The notes beneath the pieces were generated by a model. The model had not been told where the DNA came from and made no database searches. It worked only from the letters and a program-made list of their open reading frames with translations. From positions 62,001-126,000 of the forward strand of contig NZ_JAVJSQ010000044.1 in NCBI RefSeq assembly GCF_040219335.1: 64,000 bases of DNA, in the 5' to 3' direction. The translations under genes and the position numbers were made by a program. Positions 27,106 to 38,519 of the stretch are shown here, piece by piece (within the stretch, counting starts at the first letter, position 1; every line of letters starts with the position of its first letter). Source of the stretch: Gimesia sp. (GTDB taxonomy: Bacteria > Planctomycetota > Planctomycetia > Planctomycetales > Planctomycetaceae).

Positions 27106-30100
27106 TTAAACCCGCTGGATTACAGCAAACAACGCGTGTGGTCCCCCTTCCGAGAAGTGGGTGTCCGCGTCTTCCCGCGTGACGAAACGACAGTCAACGA
27201 TCGACTGTACCTGCCAGCCATCCTGGAAGGTGGCACGCAGTTCTTCGCTGCTCACGCGTCGCGGTCCTTCGCCCGCAGGTTCCTTATCGCTGAAGCACTG
27301 CAGATAAAGCGTCGCCCCCGGTTCCGTTACCTGGGCCAGTTCACTCAGGTAACGTACACGGTCTTCATTCGAGAGAATGTGGAAAAATCCACAGTCGAGT
27401 ACATTCTCAAACAGCTGATTCAACTCTGAAAGCTGTAATGCGTTCTGTTGCAGGAACGTTGCCCGCAAACCCCGTTCGGTCGCCTTACGATTGGCTTCTG
27501 CAATCGGGGCGGCCAGCAGATCAATGCCGGTCACTTCACAATCCTGGGCCGCGAAGAACAGCGCATTCTCTCCTGTCCCACAACCGACGTCCAGCACGCA
27601 GCCCCGGATCCGGTCTGCCATGTTCGCAAACTCCGGCTGCGGTTCACCAATGTCCCAGGGAGGCCTCTCTTCCGCGTACATCTGTTCGAAGTTCTCGGCA
27701 GGAGTGGTCTCTCTGTCAGCCGGACCAGGGGAAGCCGAGTCGGAACTGCTTGTGTTAGACTGGCTGCGGGAAACATGTTCGTCGGATGGTAACATCGCAT
27801 TGATCTCCTGGTTCAAAACGGCAGCATCCCCGCCGGCCACTGCAGGCTTACGGGAGAAACGCCGCAGCACCACATAGAAGACCGGGGTCAGAAACAGACC
27901 AAACAGGGTGACTCCCAGCATACCACTGAAGACCGCGGTACCCAATACCCGTCGCATTTCAAAACCGGCACCGGTGGCGATGAGCAAAGGAATCACACCC
28001 AGAATGAAGGAGAACGCTGTCATCAGAATCGGCCGCAGTCGTAAACGACAGGCCGCGACAGCGGCTTCAAACCGGTCCTTGCCCGCGTCTTCTTCCGCCT
28101 TGGCGAATTCCACGATCAGAATCGCATTTTTACAGGCCAGACCCACGAGTACGATGAATCCGATCTGCGTCAGAATGTTGTTGTCCATGCCACGGAACCA
28201 GATCCCCATGATGCCGAACAGTAGACACAAAGGCACAATCAGAATGATGGCCAGCGGCAACAACCAGCTTTCATACTGGGCTGACAGCGTGAGGAATACA
28301 AACAGCACCGCCAGCGGGAACAGGAATACAATCGTATTCCCTGCCTGCCGTTCCTGGAATGCGAGTTCAGTCCACGCATAACCGAATCCGGGGGGCAGAC
28401 TCTGTTCCGCCAGCTGTTCCATCGTCGTCAGCGATTGTCCCGTACTGAAACCGGGGACGGTGTCACCATTCAGGTCAGCAGCAGGGAACAGGTTGTAACG
28501 CACCAGGCGGTCCGGTCCTGCTGTTCGCTTCAACTGCACCACCGAACCCAGCGGAATGCTCGTGCCCCGGGCACTGCGGGTGCGCAGGCGGAGAATGTCG
28601 CTCGGTTCGTCACGGAACTCGGGTTCCGCCTGTGCCGTTACGCGATACGTACGCCCCAGGAAGTTAAAGTCATTCACGTACACCGAGCCCAGGTAGACTT
28701 CCAGTGCATCGAAAACGTTGTTAATCGGAATATCGAGCATCTGTGCCTTGGTCCGGTCCACCTCCGCATAAATCTGAGGCACGCTCGTTCGGAAGTTTGA
28801 ATAGACCTGCACCAGCCCGGGCTGTTGATTGGCTTCCGCCACCATCCGCTCGGTAACCTGGTTGAGGGCTGCCACGCCGGCGCCACTCTGGTCCTGCACG
28901 TACATCTTATATCCGCCACCACGACCGATCCCACGGACCGGGGGCGGGGGAATGATGAAGATCTGTGCTTCATTGATTGAAGAGACTTCACGTCGCAGGT
29001 CCCCGATAATCGCATCCAGGTTCCGTCCCCGCTTGGCCCGCTCCTTGGCATCTTCCAGCGGGAGGAACGTCACCGCGGCGTTAGGGCTGATCGTGAACGT
29101 CGAACCCGACAGACCGGCAATCCCGACGGAATGTGCCACACCATCAATCTCACTTCCGATTTGCGCAACCTGTCTGGTAACCACATCGGTTCGCGACAGA
29201 GAAGCACCATCGGGCAGCCGGATACTGACAATCAGATACCCCTGGTCCTGGGCGGGGATGAATCCTGACGGGACCATACCAAAGCTGTACCAGGTCGCCA
29301 CCAACAGGCCGCCATAGAGTATCAGTGACAGTGCCGACACACGAATGATGCGGGAAATGAAGCCCGCGTAGACATTCCCGGTGAAGTCAAAGAAACGATT
29401 GAACCCACGGAAAAACCAGCCGAAGAAGAAGTCGACGAATTTCCCCATCTTGTTCCGCTCGGCGTTCTTCGGTTTGAGCAGTAACGCACACAGAGCCGGG
29501 CTCAAGGTCAGCGACACGAATGTTGAAAACGCGGTCGAGATGGCAATCGTCATCGCGAACTGTCTATAAAAGCGACCACTCATGCTCGGTACGAACATGG
29601 TCGGCACGAACACGGCAATCAGCACCAGGGTCGTCGCGATCAGCGCAGAGCCGACCTCGTCCATCGCTTTATGTGTGGCTTCGCGCGGCGAATAACCATC
29701 GCCGATCAGACGTTCCACATTCTCCACCACCACGATGGCATCGTCCACCACAATCCCGATCGCGAGCACCAGCCCGAACAGCGAGAGCGTATTCAATGAA
29801 ACGCCCAGCACCTGCATCGCGGCAAATGTTCCGATCAACGAAATCGGAATTGCGATCACGGGAATGATCGTCGGTCGCCAGCCGTGCAGGAACAGGAACA
29901 CCGTCAGCACTACCAGCGCCGTCGTGATATAGAGAGTTTCAAACACCTCCGCGATCGACTCTTCGACGTAGTCGGTCGGGTTGTAAGCAATCTCGTAGCC
30001 TACCCCTTCAGGGAAGTCCTTATTCAGAATGGCCATGGTCTGCTTCACTTCGGCTGCCGCATCGACCGCATTCGTACCGGGCCGCTGATAAATCAGAATC

Positions 30101-30972
30101 GCCACCGCCGGCTTCCCGTCCAGGTAACTGATACGCGAGTAATCCTGGGCTCCCAGTTCAATTCGGGCCACATCATTCAGACGCGTCACGCGACCATCAT
30201 CGCCTCGTTTCACGATGATATCGCCGAATTCATCCTCTTCTCGCAGACGTCCCTGGGTGGTGACGTTCAGCTGAAAGTCACCAGAGGCATCAATGGGGGG
30301 CTGGCCAATCACACCAGCCGCCACCTGCGCGTTCTGCTGACGGATCTCCGAAACGATGTCGCCCACGGTCAGACCCACGTGCGTCATCTTCTCAATGTCG
30401 AGCCAGATCCGCATCGAGTATTCGTTACCACCGGCGACACGAATATCCCCCACACCATCCAGACGCATCAACGCGTCGCGAATGCGCAGGAAGGCAAAGT
30501 TACTGATGTAAAGCTGGTCCCGGCTGTTGTCGGGTGAGTTCAAGTGCACCACCATCAGCATGTCGGGAATCTGTTTGCGGGTGGTCACACCAATCTGGCG
30601 CACCGCTTCAGGCAGCCGCGCTTCCGCAACCGCGACCCGGTTCTGTACCAGCACCTGTGCGTCGTCGAGGTTGGTTCCCAGCTGAAACGTGACGGTCAGC
30701 TGCATGGTACCGTCACTACTCGAGGACGATTCCATATACAGCATGTTGTCCACACCGTTCATTTCCTGTTCGATCGGCGTCGCCACCGTATCCGCGATCA
30801 CCTGGGGCGTCGCACCCGGATAACTGGCGCGAACCACAATCGTCGGCGGGGCCACATCGGGATACTGGGAGACCGGCAATGAGAAGTACGCCAGACCTCC
30901 TACCAGAACCACGATGAAGGAGAGCACCGACGCAAAAATGGGGCGTTCAATAAAGAAATGGGGGAACTTCAT
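27106..30972 (-). CDS. RND multidrug efflux permease fused to a C-terminal SAM-dependent methyltransferase
   Basis: 1288 residues from ATG at 30972 (MKFPHFFIERPIFASVLSF); the frame is open 28 codons further but that lies in the adaptor gene. Residues 1-1041 are a complete HAE1/AcrB-like pump: porter and docking regions, 12 expected helices, and the proton-relay pair in LAIGIVVDDAIVVVENVERL. A Ser-rich linker follows (about 1055-1090), then a full class I methyltransferase at about 1094-1288: MYAEERPPWDIGEPQPEF, motif I CVLDVGCGTGENALFFA, acidic VTGIDLL, then FHILSNEDRVRYLSELAQV. AcrB relatives normally stop near 1045 residues. Its start overlaps the adaptor stop as ATGA. An internal ATG at 27795 with AGGAG nine bases before could also make a free methyltransferase. 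Confidence 0.93.
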   Translation of the reverse strand: MKFPHFFIERPIFASVLSFIVVLVGGLAYFSLPVSQYPDVAPPTIVVRASYPGATPQVIADTVATPIEQEMNGVDNMLYMESSSSSDGTMQLTVTFQLGTNLDDAQVLVQNRVAVAEARLPEAVRQIGVTTRKQIPDMLMVVHLNSPDNSRDQLYISNFAFLRIRDALMRLDGVGDIRVAGGNEYSMRIWLDIEKMTHVGLTVGDIVSEIRQQNAQVAAGVIGQPPIDASGDFQLNVTTQGRLREEDEFGDIIVKRGDDGRVTRLNDVARIELGAQDYSRISYLDGKPAVAILIYQRPGTNAVDAAAEVKQTMAILNKDFPEGVGYEIAYNPTDYVEESIAEVFETLYITTALVVLTVFLFLHGWRPTIIPVIAIPISLIGTFAAMQVLGVSLNTLSLFGLVLAIGIVVDDAIVVVENVERLIGDGYSPREATHKAMDEVGSALIATTLVLIAVFVPTMFVPSMSGRFYRQFAMTIAISTAFSTFVSLTLSPALCALLLKPKNAERNKMGKFVDFFFGWFFRGFNRFFDFTGNVYAGFISRIIRVSALSLILYGGLLVATWYSFGMVPSGFIPAQDQGYLIVSIRLPDGASLSRTDVVTRQVAQIGSEIDGVAHSVGIAGLSGSTFTISPNAAVTFLPLEDAKERAKRGRNLDAIIGDLRREVSSINEAQIFIIPPPPVRGIGRGGGYKMYVQDQSGAGVAALNQVTERMVAEANQQPGLVQVYSNFRTSVPQIYAEVDRTKAQMLDIPINNVFDALEVYLGSVYVNDFNFLGRTYRVTAQAEPEFRDEPSDILRLRTRSARGTSIPLGSVVQLKRTAGPDRLVRYNLFPAADLNGDTVPGFSTGQSLTTMEQLAEQSLPPGFGYAWTELAFQERQAGNTIVFLFPLAVLFVFLTLSAQYESWLLPLAIILIVPLCLLFGIMGIWFRGMDNNILTQIGFIVLVGLACKNAILIVEFAKAEEDAGKDRFEAAVAACRLRLRPILMTAFSFILGVIPLLIATGAGFEMRRVLGTAVFSGMLGVTLFGLFLTPVFYVVLRRFSRKPAVAGGDAAVLNQEINAMLPSDEHVSRSQSNTSSSDSASPGPADRETTPAENFEQMYAEERPPWDIGEPQPEFANMADRIRGCVLDVGCGTGENALFFAAQDCEVTGIDLLAAPIAEANRKATERGLRATFLQQNALQLSELNQLFENVLDCGFFHILSNEDRVRYLSELAQVTEPGATLYLQCFSDKEPAGEGPRRVSSEELRATFQDGWQVQSIVDCRFVTREDADTHFSEGGPHALFAVIQRV

Positions 30973-32369
30973 GGGTTGTTCCTCGGCTTTCCAAACAATG
31001 AACTGACCTTGGGTGCCGGCTTCGTCGGCAGGGGATCGGGTTCGGGGGAGATCCATTGCTCAGGCGGCAAGGGACTGTAATCGTTGGGCAGACCATCTTC
31101 GACGACTTCGATTTTCCCGGGTTTCACCTGGACCTCCATCTCCGGACGTACCAGCAGCAGACCGGCGATGATGAGTTGCTCATCCCCTTTCAGCCCCTCG
31201 CGTACCACGCGTAATCCATCCACAATCGGCCCCGGTTGAATCACGCGTTGCTCGACTTTGCCATCCACCACGACATACACAAACTGCGATGACTGATCGG
31301 TGCCCACTGCAGAGTCGGGAATCAGGATCGCTTTATAAGCGGCACTTCCCGGAATCCGGATCCGGGCAAACATCCCCGGCAGCAGCGTCCCGTTTTTATT
31401 CGGGAAAATAGAACGTGCCCGCATGCTGGCGGTATCCACATCAAACCGGTTGTCTACGAAGTCCATGTGTCCCTGGTGAGGAAACCCTTTCTCATCTACC
31501 AGCCCCAGAAAGACGGGGTTTTTAGCCACACGGGAACTGGCACGTTTGCCGTTCTGAGCCAGGCGAGTGTATTTCAAAACTTCCTGCTCGTTGGCATCGA
31601 AGTTACAGTAAATCGGTGCGACCGAAGTAATCGTCGTCAGCATCGTCGAAGTTGAAGTACCTCCGCTGACGAGGTTCCCTTCCGTGACATGTTTCTTACT
31701 GGTTCGTCCCGTGACGGGAGCATAGATCCGCGTGTAATCCAGATTCAGTTCGGCTGTCTCGACTTGTGCTTTCGAAGCTTCGATGACCGCCCGCGCGGTT
31801 TCAATGGCCGCCTTCGCTGAACTGATGCCTGCCTGGCTCGCTTCCACATTTGCTTTGGCCTGCAGAAAAGCCGCTTCCAGCTGATCGAGTTCATCCTGCG
31901 TTGTCACGTTTTTTGATTTGAGCGAGCGCGTCCGCTTGACCTGGGCAAATGCCAGTTCCAGTTGCGCCTGTGTCTGTTCCTTCTGGGCATTTGCTTCTTC
32001 AAGTTGTGCCCGGGCCTGCACCAGTTGCGAATTCGACTGGCTGAGTGTCGCTTTGGCAAGACTCAGCTCCGCTTCGAAAGGGCGGGGATCTATCACGAAC
32101 AGCAGATCGCCTTTATTGACCATCTGCCCTTCATCAAAGTGGGTGGATTTCAGATAACCACTGACCCGCGCCCGCACTTCGACAAAGTCGATTGCTTCCA
32201 GTCGACCGGTGTAAGCGTCCCACTCGACAATCTGCTTGACGACTGGCTTGGCAGTCGTCACAGTGGGGGCCACTTTCTGGGGTGGGGCCGTCTGGGCTTC
32301 GTTACATCCCGAAAGGCTGACACACAGTCCGCCCAACAGGACCAGGAATAAACTCATTAAATACTTCAT
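30969..32369 (-). CDS. RND efflux periplasmic adaptor lipoprotein
   Basis: 466 residues from ATG at 32369 (MKYLMSLFLVLLGGLCVSLSGC); the open frame upstream lacks a signal. The lipobox VSLSGC puts the lipidated Cys at 22. A barrel-sandwich/lipoyl region (VEVRARVSGYLKSTHFDEGQ) flanks a long alpha-hairpin of about residues 90-200 rich in Ala, Gln and Glu (SQLVQARAQLEEANAQKEQ). Beta-barrel and membrane-proximal domains follow (RARSIFPNKNGTLLPGMFARI). It would link the RND permease encoded next to an outer-membrane channel, which is not in this cluster. Stop and permease start overlap by four bases. Confidence 0.93.
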   Translation of the reverse strand: MKYLMSLFLVLLGGLCVSLSGCNEAQTAPPQKVAPTVTTAKPVVKQIVEWDAYTGRLEAIDFVEVRARVSGYLKSTHFDEGQMVNKGDLLFVIDPRPFEAELSLAKATLSQSNSQLVQARAQLEEANAQKEQTQAQLELAFAQVKRTRSLKSKNVTTQDELDQLEAAFLQAKANVEASQAGISSAKAAIETARAVIEASKAQVETAELNLDYTRIYAPVTGRTSKKHVTEGNLVSGGTSTSTMLTTITSVAPIYCNFDANEQEVLKYTRLAQNGKRASSRVAKNPVFLGLVDEKGFPHQGHMDFVDNRFDVDTASMRARSIFPNKNGTLLPGMFARIRIPGSAAYKAILIPDSAVGTDQSSQFVYVVVDGKVEQRVIQPGPIVDGLRVVREGLKGDEQLIIAGLLLVRPEMEVQVKPGKIEVVEDGLPNDYSPLPPEQWISPEPDPLPTKPAPKVSSLFGKPRNNP

Positions 32370-32723
32370 TGAACTCGCCGATGGTTGATTGAATCTGAAG
32401 GAAGGCTGTTTTCGGAAAAGCGTTGCTGGCATTCGGATCGCCCTGTTTTCCGGGTGGTACACACTTACGACGCTAATCGGTAAGCCTGGCTAATAGTTTA
32501 TACGAAAACTATTCACATGAAGTTTATGGGAGATGTCGATATGAGGCAATTGCAGAATTCAGATTTTTCAGCAGAAAATCGGAAGGCCTGTTCTTCTTAA
32601 CTGCAGGAAGCTATTCAGGATGTGACTGTCCGGAAAGTTTGCCCTGGACACTTGGTTTTAGGCCCGTATCAGAGAGTTCGTCGAGGAACCCTGAACCCTG
32701 AGACCATCGCTTCAGGCCCGTTT
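32370..32723. promoter_or_regulatory. Leader region of the adaptor-RND operon with a palindrome
   Basis: About 354 bases between the TetR stop and the adaptor start, without a supported gene. A perfect inverted repeat, AATAGTTT-ATACGA-AAACTATT, lies at 32492-32513, about 123 bases before the adaptor start. Its 8-6-8 layout is compatible with a TetR-family operator, though its half-site differs from the palindrome at 33385. No convincing terminator after the TetR gene. Confidence 0.45.
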
Positions 32724-33344
32724 TCAACAGGAGTATTGAGCCAGAAACATGCTGACCGTCGACTCCACCAGCTGTTTCTTCTGAACTTCCGTGAGTGGCG
32801 CTTCCTTGCCGATTAATGGGGGCCAGAAAGCGAAGGATTGAATCAGTCCCAGAAACTGCTTCGCCGCCAGTTGGGCATCAGGAATGTGCAGGTTACCATC
32901 CTGATGCGCTGTTTCCAGCCAGACGATCAACCCCGCCTCAAACTGGGTCGAATCAATCATCATCTCACGGGCCAGGTCCGGCGACTGCAAAAAACGGGAA
33001 AGCGTAACCCGGGCCAGGTCCTGAAATTCGGGGGAAGCCATCAGATCGACGGCCGTCTGACCGATGTCGCTCAGCTGAGTGGCAATGGGTTCACTGGGAG
33101 TATAGTCGGAGACTTCGATCAGCTGACATCGTGACATCAGTTCATCCACAATCGCAGCAAACAGATCCTCCTTGCTGGGAAAATGATTGTAAACCGTTCT
33201 CTTGGATACAGATGCGACTTCCGCAATCCGGTCCATACTGGTGTTGTCGAAACCGTTCTGCTTCAACTCCGAAACGGCGGCCTCCATGATTGCGGCCCGT
33301 TTCCGATCTGTCAGTCTTCCCTTGTTTGCCGATTTTGACGTCAT
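32724..33344 (-). CDS. TetR-family transcriptional regulator
   Basis: 206 residues. N-terminal helix-turn-helix typical of TetR: RAAIMEAAVSELKQNGFDNTSMDRIAEVASVSKRTVYNHFPSKEDLFAAIV. The C-terminal helical ligand-binding domain is consistent with TetR_C forms found beside AcrAB-type pumps (YTPSEPIATQLSDIG, FQDLARVTLSRFL, LGLIQSFAFWPPL). It is divergent from the second adaptor-RND operon and upstream of the first, so it is the likely repressor of one or both. The 103-base divergent region contains a 20-base palindrome. Confidence 0.92.
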   Translation of the reverse strand: MTSKSANKGRLTDRKRAAIMEAAVSELKQNGFDNTSMDRIAEVASVSKRTVYNHFPSKEDLFAAIVDELMSRCQLIEVSDYTPSEPIATQLSDIGQTAVDLMASPEFQDLARVTLSRFLQSPDLAREMMIDSTQFEAGLIVWLETAHQDGNLHIPDAQLAAKQFLGLIQSFAFWPPLIGKEAPLTEVQKKQLVESTVSMFLAQYSC

Positions 33345-33404: not shown

Positions 33405-33447
33405 ATACTTGCGCTTCTACCCAATTCCCATAGAGACCACGGAAATT

Positions 33448-35154
33448 ATGAACGTTCCCTGCGCGGTTCTGCTGATAGCAGTAGCCATCTTATCAACAGC
33501 CTGTGATTCATCCAGTCAAATCGAATCAAAACCCAAAGCCCCCCGGCCGGTCTCAATTTTTATGCTCCACGAGATGACCCCGGTTTCCCATTCGCTCGTC
33601 ACCGGATCGGTGGGTGCCTGGAAAACCGAGAAAATCGGCTTTGAAATTTCGGGACGCGTCGAAAGCGTGCTTGAGCCCGAAACCGAAATCGAAGGCCGCG
33701 TACTCGACCAGGGGAGTGGCAAAGTGCTGGTGCCGGGCACCGTCCTGGCTCGACTGCACGACGAACGGTACCGCATTGCCGTTGATTCCGCCCGGGCTGA
33801 CGTCGATGTCGCCCTGCAAAGAAAAAAAGCGATGCAGGTGGAAATCGCCGAAGGCCTTCCCGCCCGCCTCGCTTCGGCGCAGGCGGAACAGCATCTGGCC
33901 AAAGCCGAGTCTCAGCGCACGGTGACCCTGGTCAGCAAAAAAGTCGCCACCCGTTCCGATTACGACCGGGCAATGGCCGAACTGCAGACCACGAACGCCA
34001 CGGTCAAAAATCTTGAAGCAGAACTGAAAACCAAACAGGCGGAACTCAGCTCCCAGGATGCAGAGATCGAAAAAGCCCGCTTTCAACTCGCAGAAGCCGA
34101 ACGCAATTTACGCGATACGGTCCTCTATTCCTCCTTTCGCGGACAGGTCGCCCAGGTACACGCGGTTCCCGGCAGCTACCTCGATGCCGGTGATCCGGCT
34201 TTAACCATTCAGATCATGGATCCCATCAAAGTCGAGCTGGAACTCTCTGCAGCCATGTCGCGGCGTTTTCATCGAGGTGATATCGTACGGGTCATCGCCG
34301 AAAACAGCCAGGGACAGCAGACCGGACTCGAAGGCTATGTCTATATGACCGACCCCAATGCGGATGCGGAGACCAGAACCTTCACCGTTACCCTGCTTGT
34401 GCGCAATCGGAAATCGCAACTCAAAATTCCCCGCGGCTATCCGACTGAGAATATCGCCCGTACGAAAGATATCTGGCCTTTGAATTTCGCTCCGATTGTC
34501 AGCGGTGGTAACACGCTCATGACTGAAGAAAAAGCGATCAGACGGGACACAAACGGCGCTTTTCTCTGGAAGATTACAAACCGCCGGGCAGGTGAAATCA
34601 CATCGTCTGGCAATCGCGTCTTGAACGTCGAAAAAGTCCGCATCACGCCCGGTACGATTCGGGTTCCTTTCCTGGGAAACTGGTACTTCGTCCCAGTGGA
34701 AATTCAGCCAGGACAGAACTTTGATCCGCAACGTGATTTGGTGGCCGGGGAACTCAAGGTCAGCCAGGGGCAGCCGGACAACTGGAACGGACGCCATATC
34801 CTCCTCGACGAATCAAGCTGGCTGCTCAGGCCCGGCGATGTCGTCCGCGTCGGCCTGGATCAGGGAGCGACCACACCCGGACTCTACGTGCCCATGAAAG
34901 CCATCCGCCAGCAGGCCGGCAAAACTTCAATTTTCATAGTTGACGACGCGACTGAGCAGACCATGGCCCGTGAAGTCGAAATCGTCCTTTCGGAAAGCAG
35001 CTTCCCTTCCTCGCGGGAAATGATGTTACGTCAGATCAGACCGGCCCCCGGAGTGAAGCTGCCTCATAAAGCGAGAGTCATTCTGGAGGGCATGCCCTTC
35101 CTCAGTGACGGCGAACCGGTGACAGTCGTCGGGAAACCGGAGGCCGTCCAATGA
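33448..35154 (+). CDS. RND efflux periplasmic adaptor lipoprotein, second system
   Basis: 568 residues from ATG at 33448 (MNVPCAVLLIAVAILSTAC); the open frame begins 13 codons earlier without a signal. The lipoprotein cysteine is at about 19. Order: lipoyl half (IGFEISGRVESVLEPETEIEG), a coiled hairpin (SAQAEQHLAKAESQRTV... AELKTKQAELSSQDAEIEKAR), second lipoyl half (FRGQVAQVHAVPGSYLDAGDPAL), beta-barrel, and an unusually long C-terminal region of some 250 residues that includes VEKVRITPGTIRVPFLGNWY and LVAGELKVSQGQPDNWNGRH. That extra length is more than the typical 350-400-residue adaptor. Its stop overlaps the permease start by ATGA. Confidence 0.9.
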   Translation: MNVPCAVLLIAVAILSTACDSSSQIESKPKAPRPVSIFMLHEMTPVSHSLVTGSVGAWKTEKIGFEISGRVESVLEPETEIEGRVLDQGSGKVLVPGTVLARLHDERYRIAVDSARADVDVALQRKKAMQVEIAEGLPARLASAQAEQHLAKAESQRTVTLVSKKVATRSDYDRAMAELQTTNATVKNLEAELKTKQAELSSQDAEIEKARFQLAEAERNLRDTVLYSSFRGQVAQVHAVPGSYLDAGDPALTIQIMDPIKVELELSAAMSRRFHRGDIVRVIAENSQGQQTGLEGYVYMTDPNADAETRTFTVTLLVRNRKSQLKIPRGYPTENIARTKDIWPLNFAPIVSGGNTLMTEEKAIRRDTNGAFLWKITNRRAGEITSSGNRVLNVEKVRITPGTIRVPFLGNWYFVPVEIQPGQNFDPQRDLVAGELKVSQGQPDNWNGRHILLDESSWLLRPGDVVRVGLDQGATTPGLYVPMKAIRQQAGKTSIFIVDDATEQTMAREVEIVLSESSFPSSREMMLRQIRPAPGVKLPHKARVILEGMPFLSDGEPVTVVGKPEAVQ

Positions 35155-38100
35155 ACATTCTCCCCGAATTTGCCATCCGCTATCGGACGATTGTCTTTAC
35201 CATCGTCGGTCTGCTGGTCATCTGGGGCATCGTCTCCTTTCAGACCATGCCCCGCCGCGAAGACCCCGAATTTACCATCATGACCTGCGTCGTCACGACT
35301 CCCTGGCCGGGAGTCTCGGCGGAAAAAGTCGAAGAGCTGATTACCGATCCACTCGAAGAGGTCCTGGATGGTATAGAAGAAGTAGACGTTCTGCGTTCGA
35401 CTTCCATCAACGGGCTGTCGACTATTTTTGTCGATCTGTATGACAACGTCTCCCCCGCACACGTCGATCAGGTCTGGGATCAGGTACGCGCCCGTGTCCG
35501 AAACGTGGAGATGCCCGAGGAAAATATCACCCCCATCGTCACCGACGACTTCGGCGACACGAGCGTAATCCTCTTTGCCATCTATCAGAAACCGTTGCCG
35601 GGCCAGACAGAGATCGACCCGCACCGCGTATACACCGACCGGGACCTGGATCTCTATTCAGAACGCGTTCGCGATGCCCTCCGACTGCTCGATGGCGTAG
35701 CCAAAGTCCAGCGGTTCGGCGTTCGTGAAGAAGCGATCTACATCGAGACCGATGCCGGCACCTGGTCGCAGCTGCAACTGACCACCGGAGACCTTAAAGA
35801 CCTGATTTCCGACCGCAACATTATTGAAGCAGGAGGCCTGCTCGATACCGGCGATGGACGTTTTTATGTCAAACCGGGCGGGAAACTCGACGGCGTGAAT
35901 GAAATCAATACGATCGTCGCTGATCTCTCCAGTTCAGACAAAGGTTCCAACCAGGTGTATCTGGATGACCTGGGGCTGAATGTCAGACGTGCTTACCAGG
36001 ATCCCCCCTCACTGATCTGTCGCTACAGCGATCCGGAGACTTCGCAGTCCGCAGTGATTGTCGCGGTTACCATGAAATCGGGGTCGAATATCATCGATAT
36101 CTGTAATGCCTCCAAAGCCCGCCTGGAGGAAATGCAACATCAAACATACGAACTCCCCCCAGATCTCGGACTCGTGCCCATCTCCGACCAGTCTGAAAGT
36201 GTGAATAACCGCATACACGAAGTGATCATCAATGTCATTGAAGCGGTGATCATAGTGGTCGTGGTCGTCTATCTGGTTGTGGGCTTTCGCACCGCCACCG
36301 TCATGGCCGCCAACATCCCCTTTGTGACCCTGATAGCCGTCGGCGTCATCATGCTCTTCGGAGTCCAGCTCGAGCAGATGTCGCTGGCCTCCATGATTAT
36401 CTCGCTCGGCCTGCTTGTGGATAACGCGGTGCAGATTTGTGATCAGTCGCGCACCAACCAGATCGAAGGCATGGGACCGATTGAAGCCAGCGTCAGCGGA
36501 GCCCGCATGTTGGCCGCTCCCATGCTGAATGGAACCCTTACCACTATTGCCTCTTTCGTGCCAATGGTCATCTTCTTTGAAGGAGGCAACCGCGAATTCA
36601 TCTACAGTCTGCCGGTCACCCTTTCTGTGATGCTGGCCGTCAGCTGGGTTCTGGCGATGACCTTCTGTGTCATCCTGGCAGCCATGTTCATTCGCCCGCC
36701 CAAATCCAAAGACCAGCCCAGTGCGCCCCTGGTTCGCTGCTTCTACTGGTTCAAAACGCTCTTCCGCCGCAAACGGGCCGCCGACGAAATCTCCTGGAAA
36801 TCGGAGAACCAGCATTACATCAGTCGGGTTTACGGGACACTTGTCTCGCAGGCCATTAAACATAAATTTCTCACGCTGGGCGTTTCCATCGGTCTCTTTT
36901 TCCTGGCACTCAAACTGCCGGTCAGCACCGAGTTCTTCCCCCAGGGAGAACGGGACCAGTTTGTCGTCGGCGTCTGGCTCCCGGAAAACGTGAGCATCGA
37001 ACAGACCAACCAGGCCGCCAGGCAGGTTGAAGAACTGCTCCGCAAACTGAGCCCCACCACCGACGAAGCCGGCAATCAGGTCGAACGCCTGCGGGCCATG
37101 CGCACCCTGGTTGGAGGCGGCGGCTCTCGCTGGTATCTTTCCTGGAACCCCGAATCGAGGAAAGCCAATTACGCCGAGATCCTGATTCGAACCTCTGATC
37201 CGAAACTCACGCACGACTTTGCCCAGCAGGTGCGTCAGGTCGCACTCACCGGCGATGCGGACCTGGGCATCGACCCGCTGCCCGGCATCCGCGTTGTCCC
37301 CATGGAGATGATGCTCGGACCGCCGGCGGCCCCTGTGGCCTTGCGGATTACCGGAAATGGCTTCGCAGATCTGCACAAACTCCGCGAGGTCGCCGGCCAG
37401 GTGGAGAAGCTGATCCGTGATCAGCCCGAGACCTGGAACACGCATGATTCCTGGGGCGCCGACGGTTACCAGTTGCAGGTCAACGTGGATGCCGACCGCG
37501 CCAGTCTGGCAGGAGTCAGTAATGCCCAGATCGCCTCGACCCTGAATACCTACTATTCGGGAAAACAGCTGACCATGTTCCGCGAAGGAGACTATTCGGT
37601 TCCCGTCTATTTCCGTCTGATTCCCGAGGGACGCAAAACAGTGTCGACCATCGAATCCGCATACATCGAAGGTCGCAACGGCAAGGTTCCCATCAAATCG
37701 GTCGCAGCCTTCGAGTATGGCTGGGAACCCGCAGTCATCGAACGCCGTGATATGAACCGGACCATCGAAGTTTCTGCCCGCGTCGAACCCGGCGCCTCCG
37801 GGAACGATATCGTGAGCCGGATCATGTCCTCGGATGAATTCAAACAGATCGAAGCGAATCTGCCTAACGGGTTCCGTATCGAAATTGGCGGCGCACTCGA
37901 AGAATCGATGCAGGCTTCCGGCATGATGCTCAAAGCCTTCGGCATGTCTTTTGTGACCATCCTGCTCCTGCTGGTCATTCAATTTAACAGCATTTCGAAG
38001 TCGATCATGATCATCTTCACGCTTCCCCTGGCATTGATTGGGGCCTTGCTCGGTCTGTATCTCACCAGTAATCCCCTGGGCTTCATGCCCCAGCTGGGGA

Positions 38101-38519
38101 TTCTGTCTCTGTTCGGCATCGTATTAAATACGGCTATCATTTTCATGGAGTTCGCCGACTACCAGATCGCTACTCGCTCGAAGGCCAGCAACGGGCGCGG
38201 CCCCATTGTCGGGCTCACCCGGGACGAATTCCGCGACTGCCTGGCCGAGGCCGGCAAGCAGCGGCTGCTCCCCATCTTCCTGACCACAGCCACCACTGTC
38301 GGCGGCCTGCTCCCCCTCGCCCTGGCCGGGGGCCCCTTGTGGGTGGGCATGGCCTGGCTGATGATCGTCGGCCTGTTGATGGCCACCCTGCTGACCCTGT
38401 TCGTCATTCCGGCTCTCTACGCCATCATTGTTGAAAACTTCCGCATCAGCCCGCTCAGTGTTCCCATGGAGGATGAGCCCGTTCTCAAGGAGGTGCCTCA
38501 ACCACTATCTGCCGTTTGA
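35151..38519 (+). CDS. RND efflux permease, second system
   Basis: 1122 residues. Complete RND layout: N-terminal helix (YRTIVFTIVGLLVIWGIV), first large periplasmic loop, TM cluster with the proton-relay segment SLGLLVDNAVQICDQSR (one Asp, then Asn, not the canonical double Asp of AcrB), second half starting HKFLTLGVSIGLFFLALKLP, and final helices LWVGMAWLMIVGLLMATLLTLF. The motif region resembles the broad-substrate HAE1 group near MexB-like or NolG-type pumps rather than a heavy-metal CusA. It is translationally coupled to the adaptor. Downstream, 90 bases away, is an exported methyltransferase gene on the same strand. Confidence 0.93.
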   Translation: MNILPEFAIRYRTIVFTIVGLLVIWGIVSFQTMPRREDPEFTIMTCVVTTPWPGVSAEKVEELITDPLEEVLDGIEEVDVLRSTSINGLSTIFVDLYDNVSPAHVDQVWDQVRARVRNVEMPEENITPIVTDDFGDTSVILFAIYQKPLPGQTEIDPHRVYTDRDLDLYSERVRDALRLLDGVAKVQRFGVREEAIYIETDAGTWSQLQLTTGDLKDLISDRNIIEAGGLLDTGDGRFYVKPGGKLDGVNEINTIVADLSSSDKGSNQVYLDDLGLNVRRAYQDPPSLICRYSDPETSQSAVIVAVTMKSGSNIIDICNASKARLEEMQHQTYELPPDLGLVPISDQSESVNNRIHEVIINVIEAVIIVVVVVYLVVGFRTATVMAANIPFVTLIAVGVIMLFGVQLEQMSLASMIISLGLLVDNAVQICDQSRTNQIEGMGPIEASVSGARMLAAPMLNGTLTTIASFVPMVIFFEGGNREFIYSLPVTLSVMLAVSWVLAMTFCVILAAMFIRPPKSKDQPSAPLVRCFYWFKTLFRRKRAADEISWKSENQHYISRVYGTLVSQAIKHKFLTLGVSIGLFFLALKLPVSTEFFPQGERDQFVVGVWLPENVSIEQTNQAARQVEELLRKLSPTTDEAGNQVERLRAMRTLVGGGGSRWYLSWNPESRKANYAEILIRTSDPKLTHDFAQQVRQVALTGDADLGIDPLPGIRVVPMEMMLGPPAAPVALRITGNGFADLHKLREVAGQVEKLIRDQPETWNTHDSWGADGYQLQVNVDADRASLAGVSNAQIASTLNTYYSGKQLTMFREGDYSVPVYFRLIPEGRKTVSTIESAYIEGRNGKVPIKSVAAFEYGWEPAVIERRDMNRTIEVSARVEPGASGNDIVSRIMSSDEFKQIEANLPNGFRIEIGGALEESMQASGMMLKAFGMSFVTILLLLVIQFNSISKSIMIIFTLPLALIGALLGLYLTSNPLGFMPQLGILSLFGIVLNTAIIFMEFADYQIATRSKASNGRGPIVGLTRDEFRDCLAEAGKQRLLPIFLTTATTVGGLLPLALAGGPLWVGMAWLMIVGLLMATLLTLFVIPALYAIIVENFRISPLSVPMEDEPVLKEVPQPLSAV

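Follow-up and report, generated by a model that had tools for sequence, protein, structure and literature searches.

An RND efflux permease fused in frame to a class I methyltransferase in Gimesia and other planctomycetes

The window analysed here, a 64,000-nucleotide stretch of Gimesia sp. DNA from an assembly of 7.93 Mb, was found to encode a resistance-nodulation-division (RND) efflux permease whose reading frame continues into a class I S-adenosylmethionine (SAM)-dependent methyltransferase (MT). The gene runs along the minus strand from an ATG start codon at 30972-30970 to a stop codon ending at 27106 and comprises 1288 codons without an internal stop, while the plus-strand frame across the same interval is interrupted by stops. 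The combination of an HAE1-type pump and a detoxification-type MT gains interest from the observation that one MT lineage spans several pump lineages, and the sequences suggest that, in several planctomycete lineages, a single protein couples the modification of a compound to its export.

Architecture, distribution and conservation of the fusion

Pfam searches with the fusion protein returned ACR_tran across residues 5-1036 (1118.8 bits; cut-off 28) and Methyltransf_25 (PF13649) across residues 1126-1219 (66.3 bits; cut-off 27), and motif I of the MT (DVGCGTGENA, residues 1128-1137) was intact, placing the domain among the class I SAM-dependent enzymes. The profile matches and the uninterrupted frame bear out a preliminary description of this DNA, which had proposed, at the same coordinates, a complete AcrB-like permease continuing through a Ser-rich linker into a full class I MT (Table 1). 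The same description held that HAE1 pumps usually end near residue 1045; when the pump, cut at residue 1045, was compared with solved structures, the 60 homologous chains listed spanned 1031-1069 amino acids (aa), and the MT is therefore an addition to the usual pump.

The pump matched HAE1 RND permease models (PF00873, NF000282 and TIGR00915) over its full length and above their curated cut-offs, scoring 1341.6 for RND_permease_1 (NF000282; cut-off 1250) and 1150.2 for 2A0602 (TIGR00915; cut-off 940.35). The exception-level score for OqxB itself (NF000037) was not reached (1171.2 versus 2200), and by its profile scores the pump is OqxB-like, that is, of the OqxB/MexF-like HAE1 kind, and not OqxB. 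The proton-relay Asp-Asp pair and Lys are kept (VVDD at 408-411 and ACK at 946-948), with D410, D411 and K948 presumably corresponding to AcrB D407, D408 and K940 in position and proton-relay role. The whole permease, the proton-relay residues and a MexE/OqxA-like adaptor are common to the fused pump and the HAE1 permeases AcrB, MexF and OqxB, from which the fused pump differs by its C-terminal linker and 195-residue enzyme.

Table 1. Coordinates of the fusion gene, its parts and adjoining genes in the window
Feature	Coordinates	Strand	Basis
RND permease-methyltransferase fusion gene, 1288 aa	27106..30972	-	Continuous frame; Pfam ACR_tran and Methyltransf_25
HAE1/OqxB-like RND permease, residues ~1-1037, with D410, D411 and K948	27862..30972	-	Profile matches, solved homologues
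Linker, residues 1038-1093, Ser/Pro-rich	27694..27861	-	Disorder predicted over most of its length
Class I SAM-dependent MT domain, residues 1094-1288 (195 residues)	27109..27693	-	Pfam, fold prediction
Possible internal start, AGGAG-9 nt-in-frame ATG (Met1060)	27793..27809	-	Sequence; matching NCBI entry P0013
Periplasmic adaptor, RND_mfp family, MexE/OqxA-like	30969..32462	-	Profile matches; 4-nt overlap with pump start
TetR/AefR-like regulator, upstream of adaptor	32724..33344	-	Pfam

Uninterrupted frames running from pump to MT were observed in 13 genomes of two planctomycete families, namely 11 complete copies, one copy cut at a contig end (G483) and one split over two contigs (G335), with the pump-MT junction present on one of them, at its edge; the carriers include the single-contig genomes G001, G012, G009 and G517. 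A match to all 1288 residues was obtained in 5 of 59 genomes of the genus, family and class, all five belonging to Gimesia, and these are the same five that carry a close MT among 17 genomes of the genus. In one further congener the sole match, elsewhere in the genome, covers part of the MT at 36% identity, and five others encode a pump 89.6-91.8% identical that ends at 1059-1079 aa without an MT. Within the class sample, 64 of 397 genomes carry an MT (E 1e-40), fused only in the five Gimesia genomes and G335, the other listed MT places lying in frames of at most 496 aa. Among 241 genomes of the family designated f5 (query P0017), 20 have an MT (E 1e-50); seven of these share a frame with a pump (G475, G444, G517, G483, G564, G555 and G565), and the other 13 occupy frames of 210-311 aa whose flanks, as far as taken, contain no pump. 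At a strict threshold (E 1e-60), the P0017 query detected 4 genomes, all of them Gimesia, in a phylum-wide draw of 392 that overlaps the earlier ones. When two fused MTs served as queries in region searches of a 5.8-billion-protein set, 10 and 9 proteins were retrieved (from 896 and 1111 candidates), of which 9 and 9 combine RND and MT domains, amounting to 11 distinct clusters, three of them partial; the fusion of Rubinisphaera italica (P0132) is a single 1288-aa protein, named as one protein by NCBI.

The preliminary description had named two findings that would speak against it, an assembly join or missed stop, and homologues that are always separate genes. No join or missed stop was found, the frame being open in independent genomes, and fused homologues were present in 13 genomes and 11 clusters. 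The question it raised of conservation across planctomycetes received a mixed answer: the fusion recurs in several lineages and is not general (5 of 17 congeners; 6 of the 64 MT-bearing class genomes). A general operonic association of this MT with RND pumps was rejected, a pump sequence being found at 2 of 27 class loci, both fusions, and at 7 of 20 family f5 MT loci, all seven fusions. Also rejected was a large frame in genome G023 (L031), in which the extra part precedes the pump start and appears low-complexity and non-coding. An RND permease was further noted within an open frame of 2220 aa (G177:C4:134478-137657), perhaps another fusion or merely open high-GC sequence. No match to the patterns of P0017 was obtained in the viral collection searched for a source of the MT, and in the search for plasmid copies of the fusion, the match ended at or before residue 1114 among the 10 matches listed of at least 5000.

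Linker length among the 11 complete copies ranges from 31 to 61 codons, with the frame kept in all of them. Pairwise ratios of non-synonymous to synonymous substitution rates (dN/dS; NG86), calculated for 14 within-group pairs of 10 copies in three groups, were 0.01-0.07 for the pump, 0.04-0.15 for the MT and, in 13 of the 14 pairs, 0.12-0.64 for the linker, with one pair undefined. The MT is under purifying selection, evolving faster than the pump and clearly constrained, and the junction behaves as coding sequence, since linker length varies without loss of frame and the linker ratios lie in the range given. Motif I letters (D-x-G-C-G-T-G-E-N) and residues D1151, D1193, H1198, C1226 and S1228 were kept in all 19 fused MT rows, several of which are close relatives. 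Class I MTs that occur free in planctomycetes (P0014-P0131, apart from P0034 and the doubtful P0017 and P0068) are 51-60% identical to the fused MT and have the same conserved residues. Other positions near-fixed in the free MTs vary in some fused rows, among them I1192 (kept in 2/19), W1281 (kept in 10/19) and D1177 (kept in 13/19). Conversely, the derived residues Q1175 and N1190 were found in 18/18 core fused MTs compared with 1/53 and 0/53 free MTs, respectively, and appear near-diagnostic of the core fused group. AlphaFold2 prediction of residues 1031-1288 from 49 sequences reached a mean predicted local distance difference test (pLDDT) score of 84.3, with 164 of 258 residues at 90 or above, covering nearly the whole MT; linker values averaged 29-55 per ten-residue block over residues 1031-1080 and 73-85 over residues 1081-1100.

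Public annotation splits a continuous frame in both cases that could be checked, and the fusion is therefore easily missed. P0013 (G. panareensis, 234 aa), listed as a separate protein, corresponds to residues 1060-1293 of the G009 frame, and P0034 (Lignipirellula cremea, 212 aa), also listed separately, lies inside the fused frame of G517; the contigs on which these continuous frames lie are 7,828,706 and 9,565,229 bases long, respectively. P0013 is 85% identical to the window MT, and P0012 (G. chilikensis) 96%. Fusions of this kind may be undercounted in databases.

Phylogeny of the methyltransferase and pump domains

In a tree of 41 MT rows (17 fused, 24 free), 16 of the 17 fused MTs formed one clade (support 100/98), and the fused clade had support of 96/98 in a 47-row set. 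The remaining fused MT, that of P0010, fell outside on a long branch, and a single clade including it was not rejected (P value of the approximately unbiased test, p-AU, 0.40). P0010 (1313 aa) is a fusion on a third pump subfamily, where a similar joining of pump and MT possibly took place independently a second time. The free rows used were 24 of 53 in the 41-row tree and 30 of 53 in the 47-row tree and in the type-A test described below. P0017 and P0068 were omitted from both trees, the clade tests and the residue counts, P0034, being part of the G517 frame, was not included in the MT trees, and the near-identical Gimesia rows L134 and L135 were omitted from the 41-row tree.

The carrier pumps showed a different pattern. 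A tree of 68 pump rows (16 fused) required 8 label changes, at least 6 of them forced by starred branches, and a first pump tree under a mixture model required 6, of which 5 were forced. One clade of the 13 type-A fused pumps was rejected (p-AU 4.5e-7); in a smaller pump set, such a type-A clade had a p-AU of 1.6e-4, and one of all 14 fused pumps a p-AU of 2.2e-4. Carrier groups in the best pump tree were Gimesia with P0003; G517, G444, G475 and P0006; genus g228; P0133; P0007 (G335); and R. italica P0132, with further carriers in other pump subfamilies (P0004/P0005 and P0010), although some of these groups could merge at unresolved forks. These are quick trees, the 68-row tree having been built under the simpler LG+G4 model with L032-L038, L091 and L134-L136 omitted, and pumps whose matched frame contains a stop were skipped in the pump collection; the fused groups were named after the first tree had been seen, and the p-AU values are guides.

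As the MTs form one clade and the carrier pumps are scattered among unfused ones, the sequences point to one MT lineage on several pump lineages, reached either by repeated domain transfer or by one fusion followed by about 14 losses. The MTs of Gimesia (G000 and G009) are 62-65% identical to type-B MTs at a pump identity of 61-63%, and 51-59% identical to family f5 type-A MTs at a pump identity of 82-84%. For the Gimesia group including P0003, the corresponding MT values are 61-65% to type-B and 50-62% to other type-A copies, the latter at 82-85% pump identity. Type-B fused pumps were nearer to an unfused type-B pump in every segment compared, up to the last, indicating a junction directly after transmembrane helix 12 (TM12). 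Transfer of the domain rather than repeated loss is judged likely but not proven from these comparisons, as a single clade of type-A MTs was only mildly rejected (p-AU 0.031). With a confidence slightly short of even, we propose a dedicated pump-borne lineage of cytosolic detoxification MTs, known so far, two doubtful short entries aside, only as the C-terminal domain of RND pumps and handed between pump lineages at the post-TM12 junction, yielding single-polypeptide methylate-and-export machines partly hidden by annotation.

A history without transfer, in which a single ancient fusion preceded the split of the pump subfamilies and the C-terminal domain was then lost many times, would also leave the pump-borne MTs as one clade, and each loss would require merely a nonsense mutation. 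We nevertheless consider this history unlikely, if deserving of some weight, because the pump tree as sampled would require about 14 losses (13 on an earlier tree, or 10 with weak forks collapsed), because the Gimesia MTs are nearer to type-B than to type-A MTs despite their closer type-A pumps, and because no decayed MT was found within 1.5 kb of five unfused Gimesia pumps; the mild rejection of a type-A MT clade points in the same direction.

Putative activity of the methyltransferase and its coupling to transport

A sequence search of solved structures with the MT listed 6mro (E 1.1e-34), 8gdu, 4nec and Rv0560c first, with thiol methyltransferase 1 lower; a profile search gave the same first five and added TehB entries. 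Foldseek on the predicted MT likewise ranked 6mro, 4nec, 8gdu and Rv0560c entries (7bgg, 7ndm, 7noy and 7nmk) first, followed by TehB, and the biosynthetic MitM was among the close structural kin. The broader Pfam models TPMT (39.2 versus 26) and TehB (23.9 versus 20.4) scored above their cut-offs, whereas the TehB and TPMT equivalogs (TIGR00477 and TIGR03840) did not (29.1 versus 219.5 and 21.2 versus 223.2, respectively). Likeness to heterocyclic toxin MTs and Ecm18-like small-molecule MTs was observed in both fold and sequence, and assignment to the small-molecule, detoxification-type class (thiol/heterocycle/tellurite) is well supported by sequence and predicted structure.

Alike in fold and sequence to the fused MT are 4nec, thiol methyltransferase 1, TehB and TPMT, all of them free enzymes with other, known substrates. 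The echinomycin-pathway enzyme 4nec, which we take to be Ecm18, shares PPWDIGxPQP and DAGCGTGE with the fused MT. Rv0560c, the heterocyclic toxin MT of Mycobacterium tuberculosis, has the same fold, 29-30% identity (E 1.5e-24) and a common PPWxIGxPQP stretch near the N-terminus, but is a free enzyme with a motif I that reads DVGCGEAA; it methylates the inhibitor TPSA, weakening it (PMC6652808). The placement of the MT in the small-molecule group fits the earlier proposal that it could act on compounds prior to or during their export; catalytic activity, substrate class and the coupling of methylation to efflux are inferred here.

Since the C-termini of RND pumps and SAM are both cytosolic, the MT can work where it is placed. 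We give about an even chance to a tethered methylate-and-expel detoxification enzyme on an OqxAB/MexEF-like tripartite pump, its MT lineage being an add-on to several pump lineages. The gene product would form the inner-membrane subunit of such a pump, each protomer carrying a SAM-dependent small-molecule MT on a flexible cytosolic tether after TM12, with three MTs per trimer if assembly is like that of AcrB. Enzymes of this MT group transfer methyl groups to thiols, hydroxyls or ring nitrogens on small toxins, and the fused MT would most likely act at the inner membrane face on a compound that is nucleophilic and often charged. A methyl group placed on a thiolate or phenolate would give a neutral, more lipophilic product that enters the bilayer, from which the same trimer would capture and expel it, uniting conjugation and export in one polypeptide; a single specialised MT lineage would have become the pump add-on now present on several pump lineages. 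A comparable use of an MT in self-protection against a toxic small molecule is found in the gliotoxin S-methyltransferase GtmA of Aspergillus. GtmA is paired with the exporter GliA, the two being separate fungal proteins and the transporter of a different class.

Several points weigh against this proposal and against a strictly pump-borne lineage. AcrB-type/HAE1 pumps take their substrates mainly from the periplasm or membrane, so that a cytosolic enzyme would be left without a direct hand-over route. Most relatives of the pump carry no MT (52 of 68 rows), which is thus not needed for pumping, and no pump was found within flanks of at most 1.5 kb at any of the 38 short-frame MT loci (25 from the class sample and 13 from family f5), so that pairing of pump and MT is not a general operonic theme. 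In the first MT tree, of 72 rows, the fused clade (support 93) also took in two entries of free size, P0017 (216 aa, on a contig of 1756 bases) and P0068 (213 aa, on a contig of 1158 bases). As their N-termini resemble fusion linkers, both are provisionally taken as pieces of fusions, although neither was found inside any fused frame compared; if truly free, they would break the restriction of the lineage to pumps. A second, free MT product, arising in Gimesia from an internal start, is also possible from the sequence.

It is improbable, though conceivable, that the MT tailors or protects against one native metabolite (a planctomycete natural product, thiol or lipid), instead of detoxifying xenobiotics, with the pump as its dedicated exporter. 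Biosynthetic MTs (4nec of the echinomycin pathway and MitM) are among the close structural kin, and patchy presence in 5 of 17 genus genomes would fit a clade-specific metabolite. However, no biosynthetic cluster was apparent among the 13 Pfam-annotated neighbours at 19910-44334 (among them TetR, two adaptors, the second permease described below, DUF, hydrolase, oxidoreductase, sulfatase and sugar-enzyme genes, and one without a match), and the pump of the window scores as a general multidrug permease.

A further reading, to which we assign a low probability, is that the tether serves only co-expression or dosage, with a free soluble MT released by initiation at Met1060 or by linker cleavage. 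Each of the five Gimesia copies has an AGGAG motif separated by 9 nt from the in-frame Met1060 ATG, and the 234-aa database MT of G. panareensis begins at the Met matching Met1060. Shine-Dalgarno (SD)-like motifs precede 12 of 23 hand-picked ATG starts of the window compared with 8% of random 15-mers, so that such signals matter in this genome. Yet the five genomes are closely related and the SD letters double as codons for a conserved Gln-Glu, no start codon with an SD-like motif was present in the linkers of the six other complete copies (G564, G555, G565, G475, G444 and G517), and the linker frame is kept in all 11. An internal start was therefore rejected as a general feature of the fusions, SD motif and start occurring together only in 5 Gimesia copies of the 11.

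A role of the MT as a SAM-dependent regulatory or sensing domain, with the pump or some other protein as its target, is very improbable: its position on the pump is the sole support, whereas small-molecule MTs are closest to it in sequence and fold and nearly all residues conserved in free relatives are retained. An assembly join, missed stop or neutral read-through passenger is effectively refuted, despite the splitting of some fused copies in public entries (P0013 and P0034), by continuous frames in independent genomes, including single-contig ones, by selection on linker and MT, and by the single 1288-aa protein of R. italica.

Cells usually defend themselves against small toxins by efflux and by enzymatic modification as two distinct measures. 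Where the modifying enzyme is tethered to the pump, their cooperation would become directly testable, and if the MT has a narrow substrate range, it could point to a compound that an otherwise promiscuous pump handles in nature. If the discordance between domain and carrier histories is upheld, the fusions would also exemplify clearly how an enzymatic module is reused at one transporter site. Among the papers listed from the open full-text literature, which leaves out subscription papers, none on an RND-methyltransferase fusion was found, and the word 'methyltransferase' was absent from the searched part of a review of tripartite pumps (PMC8277102).

Genes adjoining the fusion

The adaptor gene adjoining the pump scored 236.1 for RND_mfp (cut-off 94.9), and each of the 10 other complete fused loci likewise has an adaptor homologue before the pump. 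The TetR gene was present in the stretches taken for G001, G005 and G012 and absent from the other fused-locus stretches. Diverging from the TetR gene in the window is a second RND system (33409-38519, plus strand), which consists of an HlyD-type adaptor of 581 aa and an ACR_tran permease of 1122 aa, the latter ~22% identical to the fused pump; one regulator may thus lie between two RND pumps. This second system is also found in G001, G005 and G012. The genome from which the window derives (G000) contains 30 ACR_tran match places, several of which are pieces of one gene, and is rich in RND permeases.

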